Source: Mycolicibacterium sp. (lineage in GTDB: Bacteria > Actinomycetota > Actinomycetes > Mycobacteriales > Mycobacteriaceae). From it: a stretch of DNA of 64,000 bases. The DNA lies in NCBI GenBank assembly GCA_020637165.1, contig JACJWN010000004.1, positions 372,001 through 436,000 on the forward strand, given 5' to 3'. Below, in pieces: positions 16,501-64,000 of the stretch. Position 1 is the stretch's first letter, and each line of letters starts with the position of its first letter. Under the pieces are notes generated by a model. It saw nothing but the letters and a program-made list of their open reading frames with translations, was not told the origin of the DNA and did not search any database. The translations under genes were made by a program, and so were the position numbers.

Positions 16501-16827
16501 GTGGGGCTGGCCTTCCCGTGTCAGCGGCCGTTCGGCCACAACGTCGGCGTCACCGAGGTCCCGAAGTGGCGGATCCTGCCCGACCGGTTCGGCGCCGAGG
16601 CCAACTCCCCGGTGATGGACAACATCGGTGGGGGCCCGCTGGGCATCAGCGAGCTGCTGTTCCGCGCGACGACCGTGCCGAGCTATCTGAAAGACGACTG
16701 GTTCCGCGATTGGGGCGCATTGCAGCGGCTGACGCTGTTCTATCCGGATGCGGCGCCGGCGCGGCTGGATCTGGGCACCGCAGTCCGCAGCGGGTTCTGG
16801 AGCCCGGCCCCGTTGCGGCCGACCTGA
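13600..16827 (+). CDS. embC: Arabinosyltransferase C (lipoarabinomannan arabinan)
   Basis: 1075-residue membrane arabinosyltransferase. The Emb pattern is clear: a first membrane helix (ATIAGLLGALLAILTPFLPV), a large periplasmic carbohydrate-binding region, a block of membrane helices carrying the GT-C motif TSDDGYILTMARV (Asp271-272), a short proline-containing motif in the later membrane region, and a C-terminal carbohydrate-binding domain from about residue 720. It is called embC by position (first of three) and by the close fit to known EmbC sequence, which elongates the arabinan of lipoarabinomannan. The GTG at 13600 is chosen; a TTG directly after the aftA stop (13567) is possible but precedes non-conserved residues. 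Confidence 0.96.
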   Translation: MTQTRANYQSARLVATIAGLLGALLAILTPFLPVKQTTAELNWPQNGTLDSVTAPLIGYVPTELTITVPCTAAAGLNDTRSVLLSTVPKEAPKAVDRGLLIQRANNDLVVVVRNTPVVVAPMAQVVSPACRELRFTAHADKVTGEFVGLTKGPDSDDPGAPLRGERGGYDFRPQIVGVFTDLSGPAPPGLSFAATIDSRYSTAPTVLKMAAMVFGVVLTLVALIALHVLDTADGMRHRRFLPARWWSLTGLDGLVLAILVWWHFVGANTSDDGYILTMARVSENAGYMANYYRWFGTPEAPFGWYYDLLAMWAHVSTASIWMRLPTLLMALACWWLISREVIPRLGAAVKHSRGAVWTAAGLFLAFWLPLNNGLRPEPIIALGILATWCSVERGVATSRLLPVATACILGALTLFSGPTGIASIGALLVAIGPLRTIVGRRSRQFGLLPLLAPIAAAATVPIILMFRDQTFAAVAQATALKRAVGPSLSWFDEHTRYERLMMATPDGSIARRFAVLALIVALAVSVAMMLRRGHITGTAAGPSRRIIGITIISFLAMMFTPTKWTHHFGVFAGLAGSVGALAAVAVTPHVLGSRRNRAVFAAATLFVTALSFASVNGWWYVSNFGVPWANEFPEWRLGFTTVLLGLTVVALLVATYFHFADADRPGDWEERAERASPRWWSRLTGSPLAVVAWLLVVFEVASLTLAMVNQYPAWSVGRSNLQALTGKTCGLADDVLVEPDPNIGLLQPVGVPAAEALGAAVAEGFSPNGIPADIAANPVKEPPGSGNFVDSEAEAAETAAQPGADAGPAGINGSRAKLPYGLDPATTPVLGSWRSGVQQPARLRSAWYRLPPRETVGGDSAPLLVVSAAGRFDQDEVTVQWATDKQAAEGKAGGSLGFADIGPAPSWRNLRAPLAAIPSDATLIRVVAVDDDLAPQHWIAVTPPRIPKLRTLQDLVGSKDPVLLDWLVGLAFPCQRPFGHNVGVTEVPKWRILPDRFGAEANSPVMDNIGGGPLGISELLFRATTVPSYLKDDWFRDWGALQRLTLFYPDAAPARLDLGTAVRSGFWSPAPLRPT

Positions 16828-16899
16828 GTCGGCCGACGCAACCCGGCCGGGCAGCCCGGAGCCCGGTTATCGGAGCGAAATCGCCTACCATCGACGCTC

Positions 16900-19800: not shown

Positions 19801-20169
19801 ACCCAGACCCCGGTGCTGATGGATATCGCCTCGGCGGCCCAGTTCCCCTGCCAGCGCCCGTTCTCCGAGCACCTCGGGGTCGCCGAGCTTCCGCAGTACC
19901 GGATCCTGCCGAATCTCAAGCAGGTGGTGGTGTCGTCGAACATGTGGCAATCGGCGCGCGCCGGCGGGCCTTTCCTGTTCATTCAGGCGCTGCTGAGCAC
20001 CTCCACCGTGCCGACCTACCTGCGCGACGACTGGTATCGCGACTGGGGCGAGATCGAGCGCTACATCCGAGTGGTGCCCGCCGCCGAGGCACCCGACGCC
20101 GTCATCGACCAGGGCTCCAAGCGGGTTTTCGGATGGAGCCGCAACGGACCGATCAGGGCCCTCCCATGA
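16900..20169 (+). CDS. embA: Arabinosyltransferase A (arabinogalactan)
   Basis: 1089-residue Emb protein; forms with EmbB the heterodimer that builds the terminal branched hexa-arabinofuranosyl motif of arabinogalactan. The same domain order as EmbC is seen: N-terminal helix ([20 protein letters not shown]), periplasmic domain, GT-C motif [13 protein letters not shown] (Asp265-266), membrane block, and C-terminal carbohydrate-binding domain containing a Gly-rich loop ([17 protein letters not shown]). The GTG at 16900 lies 72 bp after embC. The stop is 13 bp before the embB ATG. Confidence 0.96.
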
Positions 20170-20182
20170 ATAAGACGGCACG

Positions 20183-23100: not shown

Positions 23101-23443
23101 GATGGACTGGGCGGTAGGACTCGCCTTCCCGTGCCAGCAGCCCATGCTGCACTCCAACGGCGTGACCCAGGTCCCGAAGTTCCGGATCACACCCGACTAC
23201 ACCGCCAAGAAGCAGGACACCGACACCTGGGAGGACGGCCGCAACGGCGGCCTGCTGGGGATCAGCGATCTGCTGCTGCGAGCCCACGTGATGGCCACCT
23301 ACCTGTCGCACGATTGGGGCCGGGACTGGGGGTCGCTGCGCAAGTTCGACACCATCGTCGATGCCCAGCCAGCTGAGTTGGAACTGGGCACCGCGACCCG
23401 CGGTGGGCTGTGGAAGCCGGGTCAGATCCGGATCAAAGCCTGA
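20183..23443 (+). CDS. embB: Arabinosyltransferase B (arabinogalactan; ethambutol target)
   Basis: 1086-residue Emb protein, partner of EmbA and the main ethambutol target. The GT-C motif and resistance-determining region read SSDDGYILGMARVADHAG with Asp291-292 and Met298; Met298 corresponds to M. tuberculosis Met306, and the Ile-Leu two and three residues earlier are the sensitive-type residues, not the variants seen in naturally resistant species. The membrane block and C-terminal carbohydrate-binding domain are complete. The ATG at 20183 is 13 bp after embA. It is the last gene of the plus-strand arabinan cluster; a vapC remnant and a convergent PTS gene follow. Confidence 0.97.
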   Translation: MTPTAMSQTPTDIPADREVTITRWVAIVAGLLGFVMAVLTPLLPVVQTTATLNWPQGGRLDNVTSPLISLSPVSMTATVPCEVIRAMPPKGGMVLGLAPQKAKDAALNSLFVTVSTQRVDITDRNVVIASVPRSQVTAPDCQRIEVTSTDEGTFAEFIGVPPDPEALKDQDEDSPQAGYDYLRGGFADPNLRPNIVGVFTDLTGPAPPGLSVSAVIDTRFTTKPTALKLTAMLLAIAATVVALAALWRLDRLDGRRMHRLIPRRWRTFTPVDLTVVSAFLVWHVMGANSSDDGYILGMARVADHAGYMSNYFRWFGSPEDPFGWYYNLLALMTHVSDASIWIRLPDLACALICWLLLSREVLPRLGPAVSGSRAALWAAGLVLLAAWMPFNNGLRPEGQIATGALVTYVLIERAITSGRLTPAALAIITAAFTLGIQPTGLIAVAALLAGGRPILRILMRRRAIVGTWPLVAPLLAAGTVILTVVFADQTLATVLEATRIRTDIGPSQEWYTENLRYYYLILPTVDGSLSRRFGFLITAFSLFVSMFIMLRRKRVPGVARGPAWRLMGVIFATMFVLMFTPTKWVHHFGLFAAVGAAMAALATVLVSPAVLRWSRNRMTVVTVVLFLLALTFATTNGWWYVSSYGVPFNNTMPAIAGISVSTMFLGLFVLSAIYTVWLHFTARNRGEGVIARALTAAPIPVAAGFMVLVFVASMAVGVVRQYPTYSNGWANLRALAGGCGLADDVLVEPDPNNGFLTPQPGDYGPLGPLGGSKPVGFSADGLPEKIVAEAIRVNNPMPGVDHDWEGPFTLSRPGVNGSTVPLPYQLDPARVPVAGSYADSAQQESLLTSAWYELPPDDGTHPLVVVTAAGTISGNSVLNDHTDGQTVELEYGRPGPDGTVAAAGRVEPYDLGPAPSWRNLRYPRAQIPADATAVRIIAEDRSLSIGDWVAVTPPRVPDLRTVQEYVGSTQPVLMDWAVGLAFPCQQPMLHSNGVTQVPKFRITPDYTAKKQDTDTWEDGRNGGLLGISDLLLRAHVMATYLSHDWGRDWGSLRKFDTIVDAQPAELELGTATRGGLWKPGQIRIKA

Positions 23444-44551: not shown

Positions 44552-44559
<8 letters not shown>
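43999..44559 (-). CDS. PAP2-family phosphatase (decaprenylphosphoryl-5-phosphoribose phosphatase, Rv3807c-like)
   Basis: 186-residue membrane phosphatase of the PAP2 superfamily. The three motifs are present: KLAVRRRRP, PSAHATSS (with Ala in place of the usual Gly) and SRLVLGVHYPTDVLAG. Its position between glfT2 and ubiA matches the gene proposed to remove the 5-phosphate from decaprenylphosphoryl-5-phosphoribose. The GTG at 44559 overlaps the glfT2 stop by 8 bp; a GTG four codons later is an alternative. It overlaps ubiA by 4 bp. Confidence 0.9.
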
Positions 44560-47739
<3,180 letters not shown>

Positions 47740-50826: not shown

Positions 50827-52674
50827 TCATAGCGTGATCGGCACATGTTTTTCCGCGCAGGCATCGACGACCGCCGCGACGATGTCCTGGGTTCGCAGCC
50901 TCTCCAGATCCTGGATCGTGACCGACCCACGATCCACCCGGTTCTGCGCCGCGACCCGCGAATCCCGCAGCCGCTCAGCCCGTTCCACCACGTTGCGGGC
51001 GAATCGCCCGTTCTGCATCAGGTCGATCCCGTGATTGCCGTCGGCGTCCAGATAATCACCCAACGTTCGGCACGCCACGTTGAGGGCATGGCGGGCCTCC
51101 GGATCGAGCACCGTGGCCCTGGGGCTCCCGTAGCGAACGGCGATTTCCACGAGATCGTCGGGGCTATAGGAGGCGAACCGCAACTTCCGGTTGAACCGAC
51201 CAGCCAGGCCCGGGTTGACCTTGAGAAAGTCGTCGACCTCGCGCTCGTAACCCGCTCCGATGAAACAGAAGTCGAACCGGTGGACCTCCAAAGCGACCAG
51301 GAGTTGATTGACGGCCTCCATCCCGATCATGTCCGGGCGGCCATCATGATGGCGTTCCACCAGGCTGTAGAACTCGTCGAAGAACAGGATGCGGCCCAGC
51401 GAACGGTCGATCAGGTCATTGGTTCTCGGCCCTGAGGACCCTATGTGCTCGCCACAGAAATCTGAGCGTTTGACGTCGATGATCTCCGGGTTGCGGACGA
51501 GACCGAGACCGGCGTAGATCTTCCCGAGCGCCTCGGCGGTGGTCGTCTTACCCGTGCCGGGTGGCCCGACCAGCAGCATGTGGTTCGTCTGGTTCGCCAC
51601 CGGCAGTCCATGTGCCAGTCGTAGCGCCCGCACCTCGATCTGGTCCTCGATCTCGGCGACAGCGCGCTTGACCTCGGCAAGACCGACCTGGCCGTGCAGC
51701 AGCGCACGGCCCTCGGCGAGAAGTTCGGCCCGCCGCTCAAGGTTGCGCTCCTCGGCCCGCGCTTCCTCCGAGCGGCCGGTGGTCGCATCCCACTTGTCGG
51801 TCCGACTGTTGATGGTCTCCTCGTCGGTGACGACCAGTTGCAGCCGTGGATCGGCCAGTGCCAGTTTGGCCTGGGGGATGGGGACACCGTTGACGACCGC
51901 CTTGGACAGCCAGATCTCGGCCTCGTCCTGCTGGTCGAGTTGCCGGTGCGCCATGCCGCGCGCGTAGGCGAGATCCGCAGCGATGAGCGGGAATTCGATC
52001 GGATCGAGCACCGCGACTGAGGTCCGGTGATCGTTGCCGACCGAGACACCCGGATCGCACCGCGTTCGCACCTCGACCCGCTCGGCCCAATCCAGGGCCA
52101 GACGAGCCTGGCCGAGGTGCGCGGCGGCGTGGGCCGCCAGGGCGGCGGTGCCCGCCGTGACCGCCGGCATGATCAGGGCGTGGGCGGGTAGAACACGCGC
52201 AGCCTCGGCGATGACGTCGGGCCACCGCTGGGTCGCGAACATCAGGTGGCCGCGAATGTGCTGGCGCCACTGGTGATTCTCCGGGCCGTCGAGCAGCGCA
52301 TCATCGTCGAGAAGAACCTGCGCCTCCTCGAAACGGCCCGCATCGACCATCGCACCGGCCAGCGCGATGCCCACGTGCGATGCCTCGGTCACCGTGATCG
52401 ACAGGTAAGGCCCGGCCCTGACCGCTGCGACGAGATTCAGCCCCAACCGATTGGACTCCCGATGCAGCCGCGCGCCGCGGCCGAAGAGGTTCTCCAGAGT
52501 TGACAAATCGGTGTCACCGGCGGCGATCCGGCCCAACCACGCATCGGCCATCGAAGGGTCGAGTTCGGTCGCTTCGCGGAAGAGCCGATAAGCCGATGCC
52601 GGTTCGGTCTCGAGGACCGACACTGCTTGGTCGAAATGCCGCCGCGCGGTGGCGGTCACGGTGCTGCTGGTCAT
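50827..52674 (-). CDS. eccA2: ESX-2 type VII secretion AAA+ ATPase EccA
   Basis: 615-residue cytosolic CbxX/CfqX-type ATPase. The N-terminal half is made of TPR-like helices (about 10-280) that bind substrates or EspG; the C-terminal AAA+ domain has Walker A VGPPGTGKTT (369-378) and Walker B ILFFDEFYSL. It is thought to release PE/PPE substrates from EspG chaperones. The length fits the M. tuberculosis ESX-2 member Rv3884c (619). It is the last gene of the operon, 3 bp after eccE2. Confidence 0.92.
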   Translation of the reverse strand: MTSSTVTATARRHFDQAVSVLETEPASAYRLFREATELDPSMADAWLGRIAAGDTDLSTLENLFGRGARLHRESNRLGLNLVAAVRAGPYLSITVTEASHVGIALAGAMVDAGRFEEAQVLLDDDALLDGPENHQWRQHIRGHLMFATQRWPDVIAEAARVLPAHALIMPAVTAGTAALAAHAAAHLGQARLALDWAERVEVRTRCDPGVSVGNDHRTSVAVLDPIEFPLIAADLAYARGMAHRQLDQQDEAEIWLSKAVVNGVPIPQAKLALADPRLQLVVTDEETINSRTDKWDATTGRSEEARAEERNLERRAELLAEGRALLHGQVGLAEVKRAVAEIEDQIEVRALRLAHGLPVANQTNHMLLVGPPGTGKTTTAEALGKIYAGLGLVRNPEIIDVKRSDFCGEHIGSSGPRTNDLIDRSLGRILFFDEFYSLVERHHDGRPDMIGMEAVNQLLVALEVHRFDFCFIGAGYEREVDDFLKVNPGLAGRFNRKLRFASYSPDDLVEIAVRYGSPRATVLDPEARHALNVACRTLGDYLDADGNHGIDLMQNGRFARNVVERAERLRDSRVAAQNRVDRGSVTIQDLERLRTQDIVAAVVDACAEKHVPITL

Positions 52675-52677
52675 GGC

Positions 52678-54189
52678 TTACTCCGCCATTTCCCACTGAG
52701 AACAGGTGATGTAGCGGTTCTCGGCCCTGAAGAACTCCGGTTCGATGTCACAGCTCCACCCCCCGGAGGTCAGCTCGACGGCGGCCGCACCGGTTTGGGT
52801 GATCACGATGTCGGACGCAGGAGGCGCCGGACTGCCCGGGGGAGCCACCGAGAGCACGGTGTTGGGCCGTGGGGCGGGGGCGACCGTGCCGTCCACCACG
52901 CTGACCGTGGTACCCGGTGCGGGGCGTTGGTGCTCGATGACCGCGATGCCGGGCATCCGCACGCTTTGCCAGCCCGCGACGTCGGTGGTGTGGACGGTCA
53001 CCCGCTGCCCCGCCGCTGCCGTTCGGATGACGATCCGCTTGGCTATCTCCTGCTCGGCGGCAATGTGCACCCGGGTCTGCTCGGCCGGGTCGCCCAGCGG
53101 CAGCAAAAGCCGCTCGCCCCTCGATATCTTGCCGATCAACACCCCGGAAGGTCCGATCGGGATCACCAGCGCCGGCGGAAGCCCACCTCGCAATAGACCG
53201 CGGACCTCTGGACGCGGTCCACACAGGTTGGCCGCCGCGGCGCCCGCCTGTTGGCCCGGCAGCGGCTGCAGGATCACCGCCGGCGGCGTGGTGGGAGGGC
53301 GGGACGTTCGCACCGTGACCGTCGTCGCGGCGGTTCCATCGGAGAACACCGTAATGTTCTGGATGATTGCGTCGGCTCGCAGTGACCACGCCTGCCCCAG
53401 CGCCTCGGAGGTGATATCTCCGGGCCGGTAGCCGTAACTCGTGTGCCACCCGGAATCGCCACGCAGGCTGCGCCAGCCGCGATTGCGTGGCCTCAGCACA
53501 CTGGCGTCTAGGCGCTTCTCCAGTTCGATCATGTCTGTGGTGCTGGCGACCTTGGCCCGGATACCGCGGCATCGCAGCGACGCCGCGACCCGTTGCGCGG
53601 CGGTTAGAGCCGCCGTGCCGACGGTGGGCCGGTCGCGCAGTGCCTCACCGTTGTCGAGGGCATGCAGCCTGAGCACCAGCCAGGTCTCACGCCGGCCCGC
53701 ATAGGGCGTGTTCCCGATCAGCGTGTCGTAGATAGCCGGGTAGTCCCCGCCGCTTCCCCGGCGCGCCCCTGCGGTGATTACGCTGAGCGAATCCAGTTCC
53801 AGCCCCAGGCTTTGACGCATCAGCGGCACCAATTCGGCGACGTCGACCGTGTTCGTTGTCTCGACCGTCGCCGATCCGGTGAAAACCGTTGGCTGCCATT
53901 GCTTTCCGACAAGTTGAATCGCCGCGACGGCGATTCCGCCCTGATACCTAACGCCTCCCCCGGAGCGGTCGTTGACGACGGTTACCGGATCCGAAAGATC
54001 GAAGCACCGGTCCCGGGTGAGGTAGAGCCATGCCCACGACCACCCCGGCTGCCCTCGCCAGGGCACGACGAGAACGGCCACCCCGAGTGCCACCCCCGCC
54101 GCTGCGCCGATGTGGTCCGCCAGACTCCAGCCGATGGTTCCGAATATGAAGACCCCCGCTGCGACGGCAAGGCGAATACCGTCCCTCAT
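52678..54189 (-). CDS. eccE2: ESX-2 membrane complex subunit EccE
   Basis: 503 residues with two adjacent membrane helices at the N-terminus (about 5-45: LAVAAGVFIFGTIGW and AAAGVALGVAVLVVPW) and a large periplasmic or peripheral domain, the EccE pattern. EccE sits at the rim of the hexameric ESX membrane complex and stabilises MycP. It overlaps the mycP2 stop (ATGA) and is followed 3 bp later by eccA2. The C-terminal part is proline-rich with one Cys-containing end (YITCSQWEMAE). Confidence 0.88.
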   Translation of the reverse strand: MRDGIRLAVAAGVFIFGTIGWSLADHIGAAAGVALGVAVLVVPWRGQPGWSWAWLYLTRDRCFDLSDPVTVVNDRSGGGVRYQGGIAVAAIQLVGKQWQPTVFTGSATVETTNTVDVAELVPLMRQSLGLELDSLSVITAGARRGSGGDYPAIYDTLIGNTPYAGRRETWLVLRLHALDNGEALRDRPTVGTAALTAAQRVAASLRCRGIRAKVASTTDMIELEKRLDASVLRPRNRGWRSLRGDSGWHTSYGYRPGDITSEALGQAWSLRADAIIQNITVFSDGTAATTVTVRTSRPPTTPPAVILQPLPGQQAGAAAANLCGPRPEVRGLLRGGLPPALVIPIGPSGVLIGKISRGERLLLPLGDPAEQTRVHIAAEQEIAKRIVIRTAAAGQRVTVHTTDVAGWQSVRMPGIAVIEHQRPAPGTTVSVVDGTVAPAPRPNTVLSVAPPGSPAPPASDIVITQTGAAAVELTSGGWSCDIEPEFFRAENRYITCSQWEMAE

Positions 54190-55706
54190 CTGGCCCTCCG
54201 CGCCCTGCCGATGATCGCGGCCAGCACCGCGGTCGCCGCCACCGTTCCTGCGAAGGCCAACGCAACTGTTCGGGCCCGGCGGTCCGGGGGTTCGGGCGGT
54301 GGGGGCGGCGTCACCACCCTGGCCTGCGCCCCGGGTGCGACGGGATCGCCGGCCGGCACGTCAAAGGTCAGCGCGGCCACCGGATCGACCACGCCGTACC
54401 CGATGCGGTTGTCGACGCCACGCGGCGGATTGTGCGCTGTCTGGAGTATCCGGTTGATCACCTGGCGGGCCGTCAGCTGTGGATACTTCGCCCGGACCAG
54501 TGCGGCGACACCACTGACATAGGCCGCCGAGAAGCTGGTACCCCAGAACGGCATGGCGTTCTCACCAGGCCGACCCGGTGGATACGCATTGACCGGCGCT
54601 CCGTCATGCGGGGAGAGCCCCATGATGCCAACGCCGGGCGCCGCCACCGAGACCCAGGGGCCGGCGAGGCTCTTGGCCACCGGAATCCCCTTGTTGTCGA
54701 CAGCTCCGACCGAAAGCACATAGTCGGCGAACCATGACGGAGAGGAGACCGTCCTGACGTGATTCCAGTCCCGCGGATCATCATTGTCCAGCGGGTTGAG
54801 TTCGGGGTTCTGCGCGCACCCGTCCTCCCCCTCGTTGCCCCCGGCCGCGACGATGACGGCGTCCTTGGCCATCGCCGCAAACCAGACCGCCGCCCCGAGT
54901 GCACGCTGGTCGAGGGGGTCAGCCGCCGGTACACATGCCGTCACGCTGACGTTGATGACCTTGGCGCCCAGATTGGCGGCATGGACGATCGCCTTGGCAA
55001 GCGTTGAGACCGTGCCCGCCTTCCGCCGCCTCTGAACGTCGACCGAGCCCGGACTCACCGGTTCGTAGGCCCGCGAGGACTGCCGGATCGAGATAACCGT
55101 CGCATGCGGCGCGATGCCCGCAACGCCGTCCGGAGGGACGGGCCGCGGTTCTGCCGGTGTCGGAGTCGCCGGTGACGGTGGCGCGGGCCGCGGCGCACTC
55201 CCGCCGAGTACGGGTGGTCCGCCGACAGGCTGCGGGAACGCAGGGCTTGGCGGCATGGGAGCCGGCATCGGTGAGCCTTGCGGAGCGGCGTTGATCAACG
55301 AGGCCACGATCGTCCCGTGAGCGTCGCAGTCGGTCAGACCATCCCCGCCCATGATGTAGTCGCCGCCGCCGACGACCGACAGGCGGCGGTTGGGTGTGAC
55401 GCCGGTATCGATGACCGCGACGGCGACGCCGTTACCCGTGGAGTGCCGCCACGCCGCGCGGGTGTTGAGCATGGAGAAACCCGGCGCCGGCAGGCCGATA
55501 TCGGGATCCCCCGCGGCGACCGCCTGGGCGCAGACGTTGCTCTGTCGCATTGGCAGCTCCGGTCCGGGTGTGCCGTCGGACGGCACCAGCGCGGGGTCGA
55601 CGGAAGGGGGTTCGATTGCCAACGCCTGCGGGAAGCCGAACGTGAGCCCGGTCAGCAGCACCACCAGCGCGGCGGCGCTCGACCGTACGAATCTGGATCG
55701 CCTCAC
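54186..55706 (-). CDS. mycP2: Mycosin, ESX-2 subtilisin-like serine protease MycP
   Basis: 506-residue membrane-anchored serine protease. The catalytic triad is complete: Asp100 (VAVIDTGVTP), His130 (DCDAHGTIVA) and Ser391 (WGTSFSAAYVSG). A signal peptide (SSAAALVVLLTGLTFGFPQALA) and a C-terminal membrane helix (about 480-500) followed by Arg residues fit the family. A proline-rich insertion (about 144-192, PMPAPMPPSP and so on) matches loop regions known in mycosins. The GTG at 55706 overlaps the eccD2 stop (GTGA); earlier in-frame starts would run into eccD2. Confidence 0.94.
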   Translation of the reverse strand: MRRSRFVRSSAAALVVLLTGLTFGFPQALAIEPPSVDPALVPSDGTPGPELPMRQSNVCAQAVAAGDPDIGLPAPGFSMLNTRAAWRHSTGNGVAVAVIDTGVTPNRRLSVVGGGDYIMGGDGLTDCDAHGTIVASLINAAPQGSPMPAPMPPSPAFPQPVGGPPVLGGSAPRPAPPSPATPTPAEPRPVPPDGVAGIAPHATVISIRQSSRAYEPVSPGSVDVQRRRKAGTVSTLAKAIVHAANLGAKVINVSVTACVPAADPLDQRALGAAVWFAAMAKDAVIVAAGGNEGEDGCAQNPELNPLDNDDPRDWNHVRTVSSPSWFADYVLSVGAVDNKGIPVAKSLAGPWVSVAAPGVGIMGLSPHDGAPVNAYPPGRPGENAMPFWGTSFSAAYVSGVAALVRAKYPQLTARQVINRILQTAHNPPRGVDNRIGYGVVDPVAALTFDVPAGDPVAPGAQARVVTPPPPPEPPDRRARTVALAFAGTVAATAVLAAIIGRARRAR

Positions 55707-57277
55707 CGCATTCGCACCCAGGTGAACAGCCCGCCGAGCCAGGCGGCCAGCGGCAACGCCACCACGATGGCGGCCAATTCGAGCCACTCAGCGGCCATTC
55801 GTACCAGAGGGGTGAACCGCGCGGCCGGTATCAACAGCGCCGCGGCCAAACCCAGACCGGCGAACACTGTCAGGAACAGGCTTCCCCACAGCAGCGGCAC
55901 GACCGGGGCCGCCGGAGAGGACAGAACATAGCGGACCGTACCGCTGCAGAATCCCGCCGCGGCCCCACCGACCAGAGCGATTGCTTGATTCCGGTCGGTG
56001 AACGCCCGCCCCCTGCTGATGAAGATCAGCACGAAGAGACCCGCCAGGATCGCCGCGGGGATGCCCCTCGGCCGCCCAGGTGTCAAAGTCGCCCACACCG
56101 CGACAGGAAGAACGATCGCCGCTGCCACGCAGATGCCGGTCAGAACTCCGTTGGCGGTGCGGGCGGCCTCGGCGATGACCGTCCCGGGCGCCGTTCTGTC
56201 CGGACTCGGTTCCTCCTCAGCGTGCTCGTCCACCGGTATGACGGCGTCGACCGGCATACCGTCGCCGCGGCGGAAGAGTTCGCGTCCGGTGATCGATCCG
56301 AAGTGGGGCGGCCGGATCCGCGCCGCCCGCAGCGCGAGCGTCGGCGCCACCGTGATCAGGACGAGAAGTCCGATCAGTGTCCCCATCCCCAGCCGTTGAG
56401 CCCCCACGGGTTGCCACATACGTACCGCCGAAACGAGAACAGCCACCGCACAGAGGGTTACGACCGTTGCCGAGGCCGTGACGTAGCGATGCGCAGCCGC
56501 TGACAGCCCCGCCACCATGACGCCCATTGCCAGTGCCCCGATGAACAGGTGCGCCGCGCCGACCCGACCGGGGGCTACAGCTGCAAGACCCACCGACAAT
56601 GGCACCACCGCCGACCAGCCGAGGATTCCCCACAATTCCGGCTGCCCGGGCCACCATCTGCGGGCCCATACGCCCCCAACCGCCAGAAGCGTGCCGGGAA
56701 TCAGGGCGGCGAGCGATGCCCCCCACGAGTCGGTAAGCAGTCGCGTGTGCACCGTAAGAGTGGTAGCGACCAGGACGGCCATCGCGATGATCGCCAGTGC
56801 CGTCCGCTGCGCGGTCTGCGCGGTGACCGGGGTGAAAAGCCGCTTGCCAACCCGAGCCAAACCTGTCGACAACGATTCATATTGGGGCACGAAGGAGTCA
56901 CCCGGTTCGGCCGGCACCAGGACCAGGGTGGCGCCGTCTTCGACACCCAGTTCGTCGAGATTCCGGGAGATGTCGAGACGAGTTCCGTTGGCACGGTGCA
57001 ACTCATAGGCCAGCCCTGGATCCAGGGCCGCCCCACCGCGGCGCCTCAGGTCCTCGTCAAGGAGTTCAACGATGTCATCGATGAACACCTCGACGGGTAT
57101 CGAGGCCGGGTACACCTGGGAGACAAGGTGTTCGCCATAGATCACCGCGACGGCGCAGCGCGCCGGGAAAGCAGCCTTCGGCGCTGTTGCAACAGCAGTT
57201 GGTGGGACAGCCGGTGCCGGAGCATTCGTGTTCGGGCCAGACGGTATCGGGCCCGACGTCGTCGGAGCAGCCATCAC
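55703..57277 (-). CDS. eccD2: ESX-2 membrane channel subunit EccD
   Basis: 524 residues: an N-terminal ubiquitin-like cytosolic domain (about 40-130, CAVAVIYGEHLVSQVYPA and ISRNLDELGVEDGATL) followed by eleven membrane helices, the standard EccD layout; two copies per protomer form the membrane barrel of ESX complexes. A proline/alanine-rich stretch precedes the ubiquitin-like domain. The GTG at 57277 and the ATG at 57274 are both possible starts and overlap the stop of the MinD-like gene. Confidence 0.93.
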   Translation of the reverse strand: MMAAPTTSGPIPSGPNTNAPAPAVPPTAVATAPKAAFPARCAVAVIYGEHLVSQVYPASIPVEVFIDDIVELLDEDLRRRGGAALDPGLAYELHRANGTRLDISRNLDELGVEDGATLVLVPAEPGDSFVPQYESLSTGLARVGKRLFTPVTAQTAQRTALAIIAMAVLVATTLTVHTRLLTDSWGASLAALIPGTLLAVGGVWARRWWPGQPELWGILGWSAVVPLSVGLAAVAPGRVGAAHLFIGALAMGVMVAGLSAAAHRYVTASATVVTLCAVAVLVSAVRMWQPVGAQRLGMGTLIGLLVLITVAPTLALRAARIRPPHFGSITGRELFRRGDGMPVDAVIPVDEHAEEEPSPDRTAPGTVIAEAARTANGVLTGICVAAAIVLPVAVWATLTPGRPRGIPAAILAGLFVLIFISRGRAFTDRNQAIALVGGAAAGFCSGTVRYVLSSPAAPVVPLLWGSLFLTVFAGLGLAAALLIPAARFTPLVRMAAEWLELAAIVVALPLAAWLGGLFTWVRMR

Positions 57278-58305
57278 CGGGGCCTGTCGGCATCGGGAAC
57301 GTACTTGTCTGCCAGAGTCGCAGCGATCTCGAGAAGCCGAAGCCGGGCCTTCTTGTGAAGTTCGCCCCGGGTATCGATGATTCCGCCCTCAGCCAGGTGC
57401 GGGTCGAAGGGCATGAACTCGACGTCTGCGCCGGTCTGGGCGAATCTCTCGGTGAGGTAGTCCCGGGCGTCCTTGTCGTAGCCGTTGCGGGCGTCGTTGA
57501 GAATCACGGTGCTCCGCGACACCAATTCGTGGTAGCCCATCGAGCGCAAAAGGTCGATGGCCCGCGTGACGGGCAGGGACGCGTCGGCGGTCAGGCCGGA
57601 GACGAACACCAGCGCGTCGGCCGCGTCCAGAACCGCCTCCATCACCGGATGTTCGAGATCGTCGGAGGTATCGACGAGGATCACGTTGTGGGTCCGGCGA
57701 AGTCGTGCCAGGACGCCGCTGAACATCGCGGGAACCAGGGGCCTGGGCTGATCGGACATCCGATTGCCGGCAAGGACGTCGAGCCCAACGGCGTTCTGCC
57801 CCAGATGTTCACGGATGTCGGCGTAGCCCTGGACGTCGGCGTCGTTGAGCACACCCGCATAGTCGCCCGGAGGGGATTCGTCGATGCGACCGGCCAGGGT
57901 CCCGAAGCCCGGCGCGGCATCGACCGCGACGACATTCTCGGTTCGGCACTCACGGAAAACCCCGCCGATACATGCCGTCATCGTGGTCTTGCCCACACCA
58001 CCCTTGCCGGAAACGAAGGCGATCACATACTGCTTGCGAATGTGTCGGCGAATGCGGTCGCGAAGCGCTCGGTGGTGCCGTTCGGCGGGCGACTCACCCG
58101 GATTGACCGTCTTGAAGGACAGCGCGAAAACGATTTTGCGCCAACCCGAGGCGGGGGGGACCTTGCGAGGGGCCACCATGTCCGAGATCCGCAACGTCCC
58201 GGACACGGAATCCGACCGGAACCGATTAGGAGATTCGGACGGATCTCTGTCGACCGCCGACGGCGGATTCTCCGGGAGTACCGCCCCCTTCCAGGAAGTG
58301 CTCAC
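57274..58305 (-). CDS. MinD/ParA-like ATPase of the ESX-2 locus (Rv3888c-like)
   Basis: 343 residues. The deviant Walker A motif SGKGGVGKTT (99-108), the switch region VVAVDAAPGFGTL and the NVILVDTSDD segment mark a MinD/SIMIBI ATPase, akin to EspI of ESX-1. The first 90 residues are disordered or basic and are not shared with MinD. In the M. tuberculosis ESX-2 locus the same gene lies between espG2 and eccD2. The GTG at 58305 directly abuts the espG2 stop. A role in regulating secretion with energy state is inferred from EspI only. Confidence 0.88.
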   Translation of the reverse strand: MSTSWKGAVLPENPPSAVDRDPSESPNRFRSDSVSGTLRISDMVAPRKVPPASGWRKIVFALSFKTVNPGESPAERHHRALRDRIRRHIRKQYVIAFVSGKGGVGKTTMTACIGGVFRECRTENVVAVDAAPGFGTLAGRIDESPPGDYAGVLNDADVQGYADIREHLGQNAVGLDVLAGNRMSDQPRPLVPAMFSGVLARLRRTHNVILVDTSDDLEHPVMEAVLDAADALVFVSGLTADASLPVTRAIDLLRSMGYHELVSRSTVILNDARNGYDKDARDYLTERFAQTGADVEFMPFDPHLAEGGIIDTRGELHKKARLRLLEIAATLADKYVPDADRPR

Positions 58306-59139
58306 CTAAATCACCTTTCTGTAGCAATGCCAGTCATCCCGGGCCGGCAATCGGCGCAACATCCGCTGCACCGCGGCGGAGATGCCGAGGCTCGAGGCGG
58401 GTCCGACGATCATCCAGGTCCTGCCGCCGCGAGAGTCGTGCTCGGAAATCAGCCGACCCTGGGGGGTGTCGATGATGGTTACGGTGGTCGATCCGATGCG
58501 CGAGTCGGCCGGGTGCCCGGCCCCGCCGGACTGGAGTGCCACCAGGGAGAACTGGGCTGAGTGCTCACCGTCGGACGCCAGCATCAAGGACCCGACCTGG
58601 TCTGCCTCCAATCCACACTCGCGAAGGAAGCTGTGCAGCGTCGCGCGGTCGCGAACCACCGCCAACAGTTCGGTGGCATCCAATGTCATCGGCTTGACCT
58701 CAGCCGGCGACTTCTCGCCGCAGAGACGTTGGATCTGGGACTGGATCAGCAGACCCGCGGACCGCTCGCTGCAGGCCGTGCCGGCACCGCTGAGCCGGAT
58801 CAGGATTCCGCAGCGCTCCAGGCTGACCCACCATTGCGCGAACCTGGCCAAAAGCGCCTGTTCGAACCCGGATCCCGTGGTGGGCGTCTGGGCGTGTAAG
58901 AGCAGGCCGACCTCCCGTCGCGCGAGGACGGTCAGCCATTCGAGGACGGTCTGGTCCACCTCACCGGTCGAACTGACGGCGCCCGACGCCTGGAGTTCGT
59001 CGGCCACCGGATGCGCCAACGCCACTTGGGCGCTCTCCACGCTGGGCAGGTGTGGGCGCAGGCCAAGTTCGGGTGCCAGCACCTCGATACCCGACAGCAC
59101 CTGGAGAACCCAAAGGCCGTCAAGAGTGGTCGTCAACAT
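58306..59139 (-). CDS. espG2: ESX-2 secretion-associated chaperone EspG
   Basis: 277 residues with the EspG fold pattern: N-terminal LDGLWVLQVLSGIEVLAPEL, mid-part with mixed beta strands, and C-terminal RGGRTWMIVGPASSLG. EspG proteins bind the tip of PE/PPE dimers in the cytosol and bring them to their own ESX system. The ATG has a Shine-Dalgarno (ggggga) close upstream. It is flanked by esxC (68 bp) and the MinD-like gene (no gap). Confidence 0.87.
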   Translation of the reverse strand: MLTTTLDGLWVLQVLSGIEVLAPELGLRPHLPSVESAQVALAHPVADELQASGAVSSTGEVDQTVLEWLTVLARREVGLLLHAQTPTTGSGFEQALLARFAQWWVSLERCGILIRLSGAGTACSERSAGLLIQSQIQRLCGEKSPAEVKPMTLDATELLAVVRDRATLHSFLRECGLEADQVGSLMLASDGEHSAQFSLVALQSGGAGHPADSRIGSTTVTIIDTPQGRLISEHDSRGGRTWMIVGPASSLGISAAVQRMLRRLPARDDWHCYRKVI

Positions 59140-59207
59140 TCACGTATCCCCCGACATGACGCGGTGGGCGCGCGGATTCAGCGCGCCCACCGACCCATGC
59201 CAATCGT

Positions 59208-59495
59208 CTAGAAGAGGTTCCCCATCATCAGGTCGGTCTGGTGGGCACTTTCGTTGACGCTGCTGATCGTCTGCCCGTGCTTGTTCATCGTGTGGATGAG
59301 CCCCTTGAGGCCCCCCAGCATCTGCATCTGCGATTCGTGGAACGCGGTGGCCGCAGCGCCCTGGAAGAAGTCGGCGATCGCGTTGGTGCGCTGCGCGATG
59401 TCGTCATGGATCTGCATCAGCTGTGCCGAGCGGGCCCCGACATCGGAGGCGAAGTCGGCGACGCCGCCGTGGTTGTAGGTGATGTTGTCAGACAT
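59208..59495 (-). CDS. esxC: ESAT-6-like protein EsxC (WXG100 superfamily, no WXG)
   Basis: 95 residues forming two helices with a central turn, as in ESAT-6 family proteins. At the turn the usual Trp-X-Gly is replaced by FFQGAAATAFHES (Phe-Gln-Gly). The N-terminus (MSDNITYNHGGVADFASDVG) and C-terminal GNLF correspond to EsxC of M. tuberculosis ESX-2. It pairs with EsxD as the secreted heterodimer. A clear Y-x-x-x-D/E signal is not visible in this partner. Confidence 0.92.
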   Translation of the reverse strand: MSDNITYNHGGVADFASDVGARSAQLMQIHDDIAQRTNAIADFFQGAAATAFHESQMQMLGGLKGLIHTMNKHGQTISSVNESAHQTDLMMGNLF

Positions 59496-59520
59496 TGACT
59501 GGTCCTTTCGAGACAGGGGG

Positions 59521-59826
59521 TCAGGCGTTCGCGGCGAACGCCGTGAGGCTGTGGGCGGCTTCGGACTCGTGCCCCTCCATCAGCGATGCCGCCTGGCTGA
59601 GCCCGTGAGCCAGGCGGGTGCCGCCGGTGATCGTCTGCTGGAGGTCCTGATTGATCTGGGCGGCGGTATGCACCGACGCCAGCTGGGCCTGACCGCCCCA
59701 GACGGCCGAGCCGAGACCCTCGTGGGTACTCAGGTAGCCGTTGGCGATGGCCGTGGCGTGTTCGAGCGCCGATTCGATGGCGTTTCGGGTGCTGCGGAGC
59801 ACCTCAGGTGTGACGACGAGTGTCAT
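59521..59826 (-). CDS. esxD: ESAT-6-like protein EsxD (WXG100)
   Basis: 101 residues, helix-turn-helix with the WXG-type turn at AVWGGQAQ, and a C-terminal helix containing AASLMEGHESEA, close to M. tuberculosis EsxD. It lies 25 bp upstream of esxC, so both are translated from one message. The start TLVVTPEVLRST fits the family; the 137-bp gap to the PPE gene contains no gene. Confidence 0.92.
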   Translation of the reverse strand: MTLVVTPEVLRSTRNAIESALEHATAIANGYLSTHEGLGSAVWGGQAQLASVHTAAQINQDLQQTITGGTRLAHGLSQAASLMEGHESEAAHSLTAFAANA

Positions 59827-59963
59827 GTGTTCTTTCCTGTGTTGGCGGTCATGTGATCGACCCCGGATCGGGGCGGATTTCGAGTATTCGACGCTGGAAC
59901 GCGGCTGTCACTTCACCCTTCGGCAAACACGTTTTCCCATTCCCCCTTCGGTTTTTTTGTTAG

Positions 59964-61211
59964 CTATTCAGGGTTGTGACGACCTCGCCCAGGGGGCGCC
60001 AGAACCCGTGCTCGCGGCAGCCCGTCCCCCTCCTGGTGGTCTTTGCCACGAGCCGGGCCGACGGGCGGTGCCATCGGCATCCCCGCAGCGCCGATCGGGC
60101 CCGCCGTCGGTCCCCGTTGTTCCCCGGCGCTGAGCAGGCCGGTTTTCAAGCCCACCGGCCGACCACCGCTCTCCGGCGGGAAACTACTGTTGGGCCTGGT
60201 GAAGTTGGTCAAACCAGCGCCGGGAATGCCGCCACCCAGACCGCTGCCGCCCACCGTCGAACCCGGGGCGGCGCCACCCGCAGCCCCTGCGCCGACTCCC
60301 CCCGCGCCAGCCGGGTTCGCCGCGGCACCGACGAACGCACCCGGCAGGCCGAACTCTCCCACCGGGACTGCATCCCTCAGCCCGCCAAGCGGGCCGGTCA
60401 TCGACTGCAACAGTCCGGACGTGCCGCCGGCGGCCTGTATCGGAGTCTGAAACATGCCCATCGCAGGCTGCATCGCACCCAGGGCGGACTGAATCGGTTG
60501 CATCATCGAGCCGATCCGCCCCGCTTGGCCGGCCGCCTCAGCCGGGGCGGCAGCACCGTCACCCGCCGCCGTTGCGAGCTGCGCCGATTCCTCAAACACC
60601 CCGCCGGCAACGGCCTGCGCCGCGCTCTGGGCCGCGGCGGCCGCCGCCGGCGCGGCGGCCGACGCCCCCGGCGGGGACAGCGGCGGTGGGACGGCCAGCG
60701 CCGCGGACAGCACCCCGAGCGCAGATCCGTAGGCGGCTCCCGCCGCCGCGTTGTGCGGCCAGTGCTCACCGAAATAGGCGGCGTCCAGCGCCACGATCGC
60801 GGGGGTAAGAGCCCCGAGGACCAGCGGGTTCATCGCCACGTCAGCCGCCTGCTCGGTGCGGTTGGCGATCGAGACCGCGGCCGGGATCATCGATGACACA
60901 GCTGTCTCGTAGGCCGAGACGGCGCTCGCCGCGATCGGCGGCTTCTCCTGGGCCCAGCCGGCCAGCATCTGTAACGCGGCGTTCAGACCGGTCACCGCGG
61001 CGGTAGAGCTCAGCCCGCCCACGCCTTCGAAGTCCACCGCCGTCGCCGTGGCGTTGAGCGCGGAGGCCGAGGACGCCAGCTCGTCACCGATCGCCAGCGC
61101 CTGCCATGCGGCCGCGCTGGCCACCGTTGTCGCGGTGCCGGCCACGCCCGGCCCGGCCAGCCTCAGATAGTTGACCTCAGGCGGTGATGACGACCATGAA
61201 GGATCCGGCAT
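59964..61211 (-). CDS. PPE-family protein of ESX-2 (PPE69-like)
   Basis: 415 residues. The N-terminal PPE domain has Pro-Pro-Glu at residues 10-12 (SPPEVNYLRL), helical repeats and the expected WxG-like turn; after about residue 180 the sequence becomes Gly/Ala/Pro-rich (GGAAPGSTVGGSGLGGG) without known motif. It pairs with the PE protein encoded 12 bp upstream and would be delivered by EspG2. Position matches PPE69 of the M. tuberculosis ESX-2 locus. Confidence 0.9.
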   Translation of the reverse strand: MPDPSWSSSPPEVNYLRLAGPGVAGTATTVASAAAWQALAIGDELASSASALNATATAVDFEGVGGLSSTAAVTGLNAALQMLAGWAQEKPPIAASAVSAYETAVSSMIPAAVSIANRTEQAADVAMNPLVLGALTPAIVALDAAYFGEHWPHNAAAGAAYGSALGVLSAALAVPPPLSPPGASAAAPAAAAAAQSAAQAVAGGVFEESAQLATAAGDGAAAPAEAAGQAGRIGSMMQPIQSALGAMQPAMGMFQTPIQAAGGTSGLLQSMTGPLGGLRDAVPVGEFGLPGAFVGAAANPAGAGGVGAGAAGGAAPGSTVGGSGLGGGIPGAGLTNFTRPNSSFPPESGGRPVGLKTGLLSAGEQRGPTAGPIGAAGMPMAPPVGPARGKDHQEGDGLPRARVLAPPGRGRHNPE

Positions 61212-61223
61212 GACAACGCCGCC

Positions 61224-61523
61224 CTACAGCGCCAGAGCCGCGTTGTTGACAGCGTCGGTAGCGCTGTAGGTCACCGCGGCGAGGTGCTGCGCCTCGGCGA
61301 ACAGAGCGCGGTTCGCCAGATGCTCGCCGGCGCTCCCGACGTACGCGGCGCCCGCGGAGTTCAGTGCGGTGGCGAAGGCAAGCGAGTCCAGGTCCGCGCC
61401 CATCGGCAGCACCCCGACCAGCGCCTCCGCGGCGGCAGCGGTTGCCGCCGCCAACGTCGCGCCGATGCCCGTCTCCGTCGCAGCGGATCCTACAACCGTT
61501 GCTGAATTGACATTCAGGATCAT
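61224..61523 (-). CDS. PE-family protein of ESX-2 (PE36-like, degenerate PE motif)
   Basis: 99 residues, two antiparallel helices as in PE proteins, ending with the secretion signal Y-S-A-T-D (Tyr-x-x-x-Asp) near the C-terminus. The signature Pro-Glu at positions 8-9 is missing (MILNVNSATVVGSAA). The ATG at 61523 is chosen for its strong Shine-Dalgarno (ggggtgg); six extra codons upstream are possible. It is the first gene of the ESX-2 operon here; eccB and eccC, which precede it in M. tuberculosis, are absent. Confidence 0.88.
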   Translation of the reverse strand: MILNVNSATVVGSAATETGIGATLAAATAAAAEALVGVLPMGADLDSLAFATALNSAGAAYVGSAGEHLANRALFAEAQHLAAVTYSATDAVNNAALAL

Positions 61524-61612
61524 GCTCCACCCCTTCATCACCCGCTCGCCCGAGTGGCGAACGGGCGTCAGCCTAGAGTGTGCTGGAGGATGCTGTCGAG
61601 TCAGTTATTTCG

Positions 61613-61624
61613 TTTGCTAGCAAA
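61613..61624. promoter_or_regulatory. Perfect 12-bp palindrome in the divergent ESX-2/Sdh1 promoter region
   Basis: tttgctagcaaa lies in an AT-rich patch midway between the divergent PE gene and the small gene at 61755. Such palindromes are typical operator half-sites, but no cognate regulator is encoded nearby. Confidence 0.3.
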
Positions 61625-61715
61625 TTTCATGTGGAAGCGCTGTACAGAATCGCGCAACCCCCGGATTCCCGACCCTGCCGACCCGTTTCGCCAGCAGCGC
61701 CTACCATCGGGTCAT

Positions 61716-61733
61716 AGTGTGATTCCCGACACT
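61716..61733 (+). promoter_or_regulatory. CRP/FNR-like inverted repeat upstream of the Sdh1 operon
   Basis: AGTGT and ACACT flank eight bases. The sequence tgtgattcccgacact keeps the GTG-N8-CAC core of the mycobacterial CRP site with one arm base changed. It ends 21 bp before the first start codon. cAMP control of succinate dehydrogenase is plausible but unproven here. Confidence 0.35.
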
Positions 61734-61754
61734 TTCGGCCCCGAGGAGGCCCCT

Positions 61755-62051
61755 ATGCCCAAAGCCGCTGAACTCGCCGAACTGCACCATCTGATCGGAA
61801 ACATGCGCCGCTGCGTGACCGCGCTGCAGGATCGCTACGGCGATGCACCGGCGATGCGCCGGGTGATGATCGACACCGACCGCATCCTCGGTGACCTGGA
61901 AATTCTCGAGATGGACGCCGGCGAACTCGAGCACGCCGCGCACATCGTGGTGGCCACCGGCGAGAAGGTCCAGGTGCCCGACACCCCCTACGACCGCGAG
62001 TTCTGGCGGGGCATCGACGACGAGGGCGTAGGCGGGCGCAACCGCGACTGA
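61755..62051 (+). CDS. Small conserved protein of the Sdh1 operon (Rv0250c-like)
   Basis: 98 residues, helical and acidic, with AELAELHHLIGNMRRC at the N-terminus and an acidic segment around ILGDLEILEMDAGELEH. The ATG has an excellent Shine-Dalgarno (gaggagg). It is not a known Sdh subunit, but a small gene of this size stands at the same place before the sdh1 genes in M. tuberculosis (Rv0250c). Its role is unknown. The membrane anchor gene follows after 69 bp. Confidence 0.8.
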   Translation: MPKAAELAELHHLIGNMRRCVTALQDRYGDAPAMRRVMIDTDRILGDLEILEMDAGELEHAAHIVVATGEKVQVPDTPYDREFWRGIDDEGVGGRNRD

Positions 62052-62120
62052 CCCGACTTTAGAAACGGGTCCGCGTCTGAGTAGTGTTCCCTGCAGTTGA
62101 CTCGAAGGGGATCACTGCAG

Positions 62121-62939
62121 ATGAGCGCACCCACAGCCAATCGTCCCGCCACCGGTGTCTTCTCACCCGGTCGGGCGCAGATTCCACAACGGACGCTGCG
62201 CACGGACAATTGGCTGCGATCGCCCATCCTCGTCGACCTCGGTTTCGCCGCGTTCGTCATCTACGCGACGGTCCGGGCGTTCCAGCAGAACAACTTCTTC
62301 GTCGAGAAGTACCACTACCTCACCCCTTTCTACTCGCCGTGTATCAGCAAGGGTTGCGGAGCGGCCAGCGAGTTCTGGCCGCAGCTGCTGCCCGACGTCT
62401 GGTGGCTTCCCTACGCGGCGCTGTCACTGCCGTTCCTACTGCTTTTCCGACTGACCTGCTACTACTATCGCGGCGCCTACTACCGGTCGGTCTGGCAAGC
62501 TCCGACGGCCTGCGCGGTGGCCGAGCCGCACGCCACCTACACCGGTGAGACCCGGCTCCCGCTGATCATCCAGAACAGCCACCGGTACTTCTTCTACATC
62601 GCGGCCATCATCTCGGTGATCAACACCTACGACGCGATCAAGGCGTTCCACTCGCCGTCCGGCTTCGGCCTGGGACTGGGCAACCTGATCCTGGTGGGCA
62701 ACGTCATCCTGCTGTGGATCTACACGCTGAGCTGCCACTCCTGCCGGCACGTGACCGGCGGACGGCTCAAACACTTCTCCAAGCACCCGGTCCGGTACTG
62801 GATCTGGACGCAGGTCAGCGCGATCAACACCCGGCACAAGATGTTCGCGTGGATCACCCTCGGCTCGCTGATGCTCACCGATTTCTACATCATGCTCGTC
62901 GCCAGTGGCACCATCTCCGACCTGAGATTCATTGGCTGA
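62121..62939 (+). CDS. Succinate dehydrogenase 1 membrane anchor subunit (Rv0249c-like)
   Basis: 272 residues with five membrane helices, the anchor of the mycobacterial Sdh1 complex that passes electrons from succinate to menaquinone. It carries Cys/His clusters, CISKGCG (74-80) and SCHSCRH (204-210), which fit the membrane-embedded Rieske-type iron-sulfur cluster described for M. smegmatis Sdh1. The ATG at 62121 has AAGGGG upstream; earlier in-frame starts are less likely. Length is nearly identical to Rv0249c (273). The sdhA start lies 38 bp downstream. Confidence 0.92.
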   Translation: MSAPTANRPATGVFSPGRAQIPQRTLRTDNWLRSPILVDLGFAAFVIYATVRAFQQNNFFVEKYHYLTPFYSPCISKGCGAASEFWPQLLPDVWWLPYAALSLPFLLLFRLTCYYYRGAYYRSVWQAPTACAVAEPHATYTGETRLPLIIQNSHRYFFYIAAIISVINTYDAIKAFHSPSGFGLGLGNLILVGNVILLWIYTLSCHSCRHVTGGRLKHFSKHPVRYWIWTQVSAINTRHKMFAWITLGSLMLTDFYIMLVASGTISDLRFIG

Positions 62940-62977: not shown

Positions 62978-64000
62978 ATGGTTGAAGTCGAACGGCATTC
63001 GTACGACGTTGTCGTGATCGGTGCCGGGGGCTCGGGGCTGCGCGCGGTGATCGAGGCTCGTCAGCGCGGGCTACGGGTGGCGGTGGTGAGCAAGTCGTTG
63101 TTCGGCAAGGCGCACACCGTGATGGCCGAGGGTGGCTGCGCGGCCGCGATGGGCAACGCCAACTCCAAGGACAGCTGGCAGGTGCACTTCGCCGACACGA
63201 TGCGCGGCGGCAAATTCCTCAACAACTGGCGAATGGCCGAGCTGCACGCCCAGGAGGCACCCGAGCGGGTGTGGGAGCTGGAGACTTACGGCGCGCTGTT
63301 CGACCGGACCAAGGACGGCCGGATCAGCCAGCGCAACTTCGGCGGCCACACCTACCCGCGGCTGGCTCACGTCGGCGACCGCACCGGCCTGGAGATCATC
63401 CGCACCCTGCAGCAGAAGATCGTCTCGCTGCAGCAGGAAGACAAGGCCGAACTGGGTGACTACGAGGCCCGGATCAAGGTCTTCGCCGAATGCTCGATTA
63501 CCGAGTTGATCACCGAGGGAGGCCGGATCGCCGGGGCGTTCGGCTACTGGCGCGAGACCGGCAAGTTCATCCTCTTCGAGGCGCCGGCGATCGTGCTGGC
63601 CACCGGCGGCATCGGCAAGTCGTTCAAGGTGTCGTCGAACTCCTGGGAGTACACCGGCGACGGCCACGCGCTGGCGATGCGGGCCGGGTCCTCGCTGATC
63701 AACATGGAGTTCATCCAGTTTCACCCGACCGGAATGGTCTGGCCGCTGTCGGTGAAGGGCATCCTGGTCACCGAGGGCGTGCGCGGCGACGGCGGGGTTC
63801 TGAAGAACTCCGAGGGCAAGCGGTTCATGTTCGACTACATCCCCTCAGTGTTCAAGGGTCAGTACGCCGAGACCGAGGAGGAGGCCGACCAGTGGCTCAA
63901 GGACAACGACTCGGCTCGGCGCACCCCTGACCTGCTGCCCCGCGACGAGGTCGCCCGGGCGATCAACACCGAGGTCAAGGCCGGCCGGGGCACCCCCCAC
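62978..64000 (+). CDS. sdhA: Succinate dehydrogenase 1 flavoprotein SdhA, 3' truncated by window edge
   Basis: The first 341 codons of the flavoprotein subunit (the M. tuberculosis Sdh1 SdhA has about 646 residues). The FAD-binding fold opens VVVIGAGGSGLRAVIEARQ (12-30), the flavin-linking histidine is His46 in FGKAHTVMAEGG, and the active-site region EFIQFHPTGM is present. It oxidises succinate to fumarate on the cytosolic side and feeds electrons to SdhB, expected just outside the window. Operon order: small gene, membrane anchor, sdhA. Confidence 0.95.
   Translation, partial: MVEVERHSYDVVVIGAGGSGLRAVIEARQRGLRVAVVSKSLFGKAHTVMAEGGCAAAMGNANSKDSWQVHFADTMRGGKFLNNWRMAELHAQEAPERVWELETYGALFDRTKDGRISQRNFGGHTYPRLAHVGDRTGLEIIRTLQQKIVSLQQEDKAELGDYEARIKVFAECSITELITEGGRIAGAFGYWRETGKFILFEAPAIVLATGGIGKSFKVSSNSWEYTGDGHALAMRAGSSLINMEFIQFHPTGMVWPLSVKGILVTEGVRGDGGVLKNSEGKRFMFDYIPSVFKGQYAETEEEADQWLKDNDSARRTPDLLPRDEVARAINTEVKAGRGTPH

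Follow-up and report, generated by a model that had tools for sequence, protein, structure and literature searches.

The window analysed here is a 64,000-nucleotide stretch (C27:372001-436000) of a Mycolicibacterium sp. genome (G000; 3.85 Mb in 32 contigs, 94.3% complete), and its minus strand carries, at positions 50827-61541, ten genes of the type VII secretion system ESX-2 without eccB or eccC. The best reading is that ESX-2 here is not orphaned, borrowed or decaying and that the ten genes form one part of a two-part ESX-2, the eccB2-eccC2 pair being located at a distance of about 53 kb from PE in DNA that was left unassembled (probability of about 0.88). The apparent lack of eccB and eccC is most likely a split cluster of a described kind combined with an assembly gap. 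EccB, EccC, EccD and EccE form the membrane pore of ESX systems, in which EccB is a membrane anchor and EccC the FtsK-like motor ATPase that powers export; EspG acts as an escort of the PE/PPE pair, EccA as a cytosolic ATPase and MycP as a protease. In the arrangement proposed, a rearrangement between eccC2 and PE would have detached the eccB2-eccC2 pair and left the PE-to-eccA segment as the larger half, and the subunits would be supplied in trans from two transcription units, with assembly, secretion and function otherwise being those of an ordinary ESX machine.

The missing pair was found in both close sister metagenome-assembled genomes (MAGs). The nearest relative of the window locus is that of HKST-UBA35 (L067 in G264; 94% identity in EccD, with a synonymous divergence, dS, of 0.13-0.22 from G000), followed by that of HKST-UBA37 (L068 in G198; 84-85% in EccD). 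Both sisters contain an intact eccB2-eccC2 pair in the same neighbourhood, beside an enoyl-CoA hydratase gene, and in both this pair and the remaining half of the ESX-2 locus reside on separate contigs. The EccC of HKST-UBA35 retains three P-loops, and the last ATPase domain of the detached sister EccC scores 220 bits against the solved EccC2 (6jd5), twice its score against EccC5 of the paralogous ESX-5 system (107 bits) and above those against EccCb1 (90 bits) and EccC3 (59 bits), by which it is identified as an ESX-2-type protein. Between the two sisters, the ratio of nonsynonymous to synonymous substitution rates (dN/dS) is 0.22 for eccB2 and 0.11 for eccC2. The first-pass annotation of the window had proposed that the two genes had moved elsewhere, that the system borrows subunits from another ESX system or that it is decaying; the detached pairs in the sisters, and in much of the genus (see below), support the first of these. 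An IS481-like transposase gene (L217:7225-8229 on G264 C95; integrase core rve_3, 64.5 bits) adjoins the neighbourhood of the detached pair in HKST-UBA35; HKST-UBA37 lacks this stretch in the alignment.

The position of the pair relative to the window can be predicted from the HKST-UBA37 contig C154. Its first 27,990 bp are colinear with G000 C27:436943-465010 (90.5-91.8% DNA identity), and the match runs to the last base of C27 (465010), which falls inside a MaoC-like dehydratase gene (C154:27261-28091). Beyond this point C154 carries a glycosyl-hydrolase-3 gene, aftD (PF11847, 911 bits), and then eccC2 and eccB2, and the HKST-UBA35 contig C95 is colinear with C154:30128-55511 at 90-93% identity. 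From this colinearity, the 3' end of eccC2 is predicted at 31.5 + 21.6 kb (about 53 kb) from the PE start, and eccB2 should begin about 59 kb from PE, with both genes on the same strand; the pair would sit about 22-27 kb past the end of C27, beyond aftD, in a piece absent from the assembly. No DNA orthologous to C154:28000-76000 was found in the G000 assembly (two of the comparisons were made at an E-value of 1e-30), apart from matches at 63-72% identity (taken as paralogues), some short repeats and a single gene on C28 that stands alone. This gene (G000 C28:133800-135869, 70-82% identity) was considered as the flank of the sister eccB2, but it has different neighbours and was taken as a paralogous gene. 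Because aftD is a cell-wall gene that is essential in mycobacteria, the block that contains it is more likely to be missing from the assembly than from the organism.

The genome-wide search that the first-pass annotation had proposed returned neither gene from the assembly. For EccB, there were no matches to PF05108 in G000; this model also matched none of the 14 built-in control genomes, and same-genus relatives, of which 23 of 24 gave a match (one only a short piece), served as the substitute control. For EccC, the best match to the EccCb model was an FtsK-like frame of 38.9 bits (cut-off 346.55), the EccCa model TIGR03924 not having been searched there, and the same frame scored 42.9 bits with an EccC2 protein as query, all other matches being weaker. 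This 906-aa frame on C23 was rejected as an EccC and taken as the housekeeping FtsK, because a similar match (approximately 28% identity, from query residue 494 to 684-694) occurs in 14 of 18 genomes; at the FtsK-like locus L009, no family match was obtained with stops read as X. Exactly one EccD, that of the window, was found in the assembly. The proposal that subunits are borrowed finds no support in this assembly, as no second EccB, EccC or EccD to lend was found there. The absence of eccB and eccC from the assembly need not mean their absence from the cell, because C27 stops within a gene 29 kb beyond the window.

Several points weigh against the two-part arrangement. The eccB2-eccC2 pair itself was not seen in G000; the colinearity reaches only to the end of C27, and 2.1 kb of the predicted path (C154:27990-30128) depends on HKST-UBA37 alone. 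The predicted distance is also indirect, the halves being on different contigs in the sisters, and HKST-UBA37 is mixed or chimeric in at least one contig, so that its layout is not beyond doubt. In addition, eccC2 was not found in M. gordonae CTRI 14-8773 (G279, L090; 7.6 Mb), G269, G219 and G136, all of which carry eccD2 and may be genomes that have actually lost the motor pair; G219 is a 7.3-Mb genome in two contigs. PMC6616192 likewise reports that pe36, eccC2 and eccB2 were undetected in M. gordonae. These genomes, together with the lack of EccB and EccC in a 94.3% complete assembly, are what favours a true loss of eccB2 and eccC2 in G000, after which the remaining ESX-2 proteins would be orphaned or use the EccB and EccC of another system. 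We nevertheless consider such a loss improbable: no other EccB, EccC or EccD from which to borrow was found in the assembly, the expected block is gone as a whole together with aftD where the contig breaks inside a gene, and the pair is retained in both close sisters with low dN/dS between them. That ESX-2 works without any EccB or EccC is hardly credible.

A misjoined contig at about 61.5-61.75 kb, hiding an ordinary contiguous locus, was also considered, given that the assembly is a 32-contig draft and that one of the sister bins is clearly mosaic. PE starts with an ATG at 61523 and the next gene begins 231 bp away, at 61755, followed by the sdh operon, which confirms the first-pass description of PE as the first gene facing an sdh-side neighbour, and no relic of eccB or eccC was detected beside PE (tblastn of the sister EccB2 and EccC2 on the 64-kb window, best E-value 0.92). 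The identical order of PE, the small gene and sdh is present in HKST-UBA37 (about 85% DNA identity) and in the more distant MAG G227 (L053/L070; 68% identity in EccD); the HKST-UBA35 contig stops short of this junction. The HKST-UBA37 contig in question, C106, matches G000 at about 85% identity as far as approximately 62.7 kb of the window; the identity climbs through the conserved sdhA and reaches 99-100% from 64.7 kb onward (C106:76552-99320), as far as compared, including C27:436001-455000, and C154 of the same MAG holds a second copy (about 91.5%) of the region that C106 matches at 99-100%. By these identities, HKST-UBA37 appears to be a mixed bin, to contain a chimeric contig or to have undergone very recent transfer. 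Its junction still counts as independent support, because it falls in the divergent part of C106. Since the junction recurs in divergent DNA and both sisters carry eccB2-eccC2 elsewhere, beside the enoyl-CoA hydratase gene, a misjoin is highly unlikely.

The ten genes were also compared with those of the two sisters, giving dN/dS values of 0.06-0.28 in 18 comparisons, in which PE and PPE were compared with HKST-UBA37 only because the HKST-UBA35 contig ends there. The values for esxC and esxD are among the lowest (0.06-0.11), and that for eccA is 0.10-0.16. Decay after loss of the motor, with the frames still open through its recency, can be virtually dismissed: its sole point in favour is that eccB and eccC were not seen, and against it are the open frames and the low dN/dS in 18 of 18 comparisons, which bear out the first-pass argument that intact frames speak against simple decay. 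Both halves look constrained, as in one working machine and unlike a decaying locus.

The two-part arrangement inferred for G000 has counterparts across the genus. A scan of named genomes for ESX-2-type EccD gave at least 80 loci, in which the flank of at most 10 kb limits the meaning of 'not adjacent'. Among the 80 loci listed, 31 include eccC2 and 13 are cut off too soon for a decision; eccC2 is absent, despite at least 4.5 kb of sequence upstream of the first gene found, in 36 of the 67 decidable loci among the matches listed. Loci with PE or esxD as their first gene are thus common. In L097 (M. montefiorense), one of the 31, the eccB2-eccC2 pair lies downstream of eccA and not upstream of PE. 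In a set of 248 genomes of the genus drawn from a larger group, where the two best EccC2 candidates per genome were scored, EccC2 (at least 74% identity) was found in 55 of the 58 genomes with a near full-length EccD2 (at least 57%), according to hand-copied lists that left out G092, G122 and G124, in which EccD2 is in pieces; the exceptions are G000, G219 and G136. In a second set, overlapping the first and made up of G000, G198 and 16 genomes whose locus lacked eccC2 or was cut short, EccC2 was found in 15 of 18 (two in pieces at contig ends) and not in G000, G269 and G279. Of 19 listed pairs of eccD2 and eccC2 on the same contig, which are not all such pairs, seven are contiguous (gap of 3-7 kb); in 11 the two genes lie on opposite strands at a distance of 63-83 kb, and in the remaining one the distance is 1.6 Mb.

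Two positions of the break were distinguished: between eccC2 and PE (16 loci, to which the window and L070 are added) and between PPE and esxD (20 loci, plus L097). On a tree of MinD, EccD and EccA built by a quick method (81 rows, including two on long branches, two that are copies from one genome and several loci from MAGs), the contiguous and the two split states need eight changes when the 12 undecided rows are excluded, with splits and rejoinings being indistinguishable. When the undecided rows are treated as outsiders, 9, 8 and 7 changes are required for the three groups versus 24, 17 and 19 with shuffled labels. This suggests that ESX-2 was broken up on several occasions, at one or other of two breakpoints, and that the detached motor pair was retained in most cases. 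Four loci labelled as Lentisphaerae, Acidobacteria or Bifidobacterium breve (L095, L096, L114 and L116) carry mycobacterial ESX-2 genes and are likely to represent misnamed or contaminated MAG bins.

The arrangement in the window is a further instance of an already described split of ESX-2. In one branch of the tree, comprising M. colombiense, M. arosiense and their kin, which we take to belong to the M. avium complex, PE is first and eccC2 is not upstream in all six loci, as in the window. The window lies on a separate branch, however, with EccD only about 50% identical, and its PE gene faces the sdh side, whereas no sdh was found in the M. avium complex-type loci. A transposition of EccB2 and EccC2 is given as distinguishing the M. 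avium complex in PMC4791881, which also puts the number of ESX clusters per mycobacterial species at two to seven, and PMC8025370 places eccB2/eccC2 of M. intracellulare in hypermutated regions. In M. paragordonae, ESX-2 likewise occupies two distant chromosomal regions with eccB2 and eccC2 in the smaller part, for which the authors invoke lateral transfer after loss (PMC6616192). In this species and in the M. gordonae/M. asiaticum group the break lies between PPE and esxD, unlike the break between eccC2 and PE in the window, and in the one detached half of this kind that was read (G080, L153), eccC2 is followed by PPE- and PE-like genes (63.5 and 19.9 bits, the latter just under the cut-off). 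The 11 one-contig genomes with halves 63-83 kb apart have them on opposite strands (the break type was not checked in each), which differs from the same-strand orientation predicted for the window. No paper on ESX-2 in metagenome-assembled Mycobacterium was found in the literature searched.

The genes of the window and of the detached sister pair are listed in Table 1. As the first-pass annotation had stated, the ten genes are intact, with open frames, family matches, the protease triad and the Walker residues of EccA (GPPGTGKT and ILFFDE) all found, and they comprise PE, PPE, two WXG100 genes, espG, a MinD/EspI-like gene, eccD, mycP, eccE and eccA in conserved order. This order is presumably, gene by gene, that of the contiguous ESX-2 locus of M. 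tuberculosis, from which the window differs in that eccB2-eccC2 is not directly before PE; the MinD/ParA-like gene occupies what we take to be the EspI/Rv3888c position. In M. tuberculosis, ESX-2 extends over Rv3884c-Rv3895c according to PMC6616192. The identity of the system as ESX-2, and not ESX-1, ESX-3, ESX-4 or ESX-5, comes solely through the sister's EccC. Solved ESX-2 EccD, EspG and MycP were not among the structure matches for the window's own proteins, and solved ESX-5 complexes (EccC5/EccD5; 7np7 and 7b9f) are the top-scoring solved relatives of the window EccD and MycP and of the sister EccC2. The annotated start of eccD, at 57277, probably lies upstream of the true one, because its relatives mostly align from about residue 22-34. 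The YxxxD motif of PE is present as YSATD at residue 92 of the longer frame starting at 61541, and the EsxC-like protein, in which FQG replaces WxG, is 97-98% identical to its counterparts in the sisters. The small gene facing PE sits at what is presumably the Rv0250c position. Elsewhere in the window, three consecutive arabinosyltransferase genes on the plus strand (13567-23443; 1086, 1089 and 1086 aa; Arabinose_trans, 541-669 bits each) form an embCAB-like cluster, with glf and glfT2 not far away (44552-47733).

Table 1. Genes of the window locus and its junction, and the detached eccB2-eccC2 pair of HKST-UBA37
Feature	Position	Strand	Evidence
eccA (AAA ATPase EccA of ESX-2), 615 aa	50827..52674	-	TIGR03922, 622 bits (cut-off 467); Walker A/B
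eccE, 503 aa	52678..54189	-	TIGR03923, 232 bits
mycP (mycosin protease), 533 aa	54186..55787	-	TIGR03921, 349 bits; triad D127/H157/S418, by motif
eccD	55703..57277	-	TIGR03920, 298 bits
MinD/ParA-like P-loop protein	57274..58305	-	CbiA/MinD families; KGGVGKT at residue 101
espG	58306..59139	-	PF14011, 99.8 bits; closest solved chains EspG5 and EspG3
esxC-like WXG100 protein	59208..59495	-	PF06013, 47.7 bits; FQG replaces WxG
esxD-like WXG100 protein	59521..59826	-	PF06013, 34.6 bits; WGG
PPE gene	59964..61211	-	PF00823, 70.4 bits
PE gene, first of this locus half	61224..61523	-	PF00934, 30.8 bits for frame 61224-61541
Junction between PE and divergent sdh-side genes, 231 bp	61524..61754	.	Aligned in three genomes
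Small conserved gene facing PE	61755..62051	+	96% identity in L047, 80% in L053; no Pfam match
Sdh1-operon membrane subunit, by position only	62097..62939	+	84% in L047, 90% over part in L053; no Pfam/NCBIfam match
sdhA-like flavoprotein, runs past window end	62978..64000	+	NF005866, 734 bits (partial protein), under cut-off 819
eccC2, HKST-UBA37	C154:49574-53671		Passes NCBIfam cut-offs for EccCa and EccCb
eccB2, HKST-UBA37	C154:53675-55165		Passes NCBIfam cut-off for EccB

ESX-2 may also be the sole type VII system of some of these organisms. In a hand-picked set of 22 genomes, which is not random and consists mostly of drafts, a single EccD, of ESX-2 type, was found in 11 (G210, G122, G227, G265, G267, G268, G269, G270, G271, G273 and G000). 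In an overlapping list of 22 handles, eight had a single EccB and two (G000 and G269) had none; the coordinates obtained for G048 and G272 coincide, and these two handles evidently denote a single genome. One of the genomes with a single EccD, G210, is 97% complete. Against ESX-2 being alone, the closest sister, G264, has three EccD and an EccC on its contig C76 that is similar to EccC3 in the N-terminal third (289 bits), because of which ESX-3 may exist in this clade. That several mycobacterial lineages known from metagenomes, G000 included, run on a two-part ESX-2 alone, without ESX-3 and ESX-4, is consequently no more than a tentative suggestion, one that we hold to be somewhat doubtful. 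If true, ESX-2 would there perform any type VII function that is indispensable to a mycobacterium, and, if confirmed on closed genomes, the role of ESX-2 would become easier to approach.

With the two-part arrangement, the locus no longer looks like an exception to the rule that EccB and EccC belong to every ESX machine. For annotation, it implies that 'ESX-2 without eccB/eccC' usually denotes a split locus, sometimes combined with an assembly gap. Because ESX-2 appears to have split repeatedly while mostly retaining the detached motor pair, the two halves of the system need not be co-transcribed.

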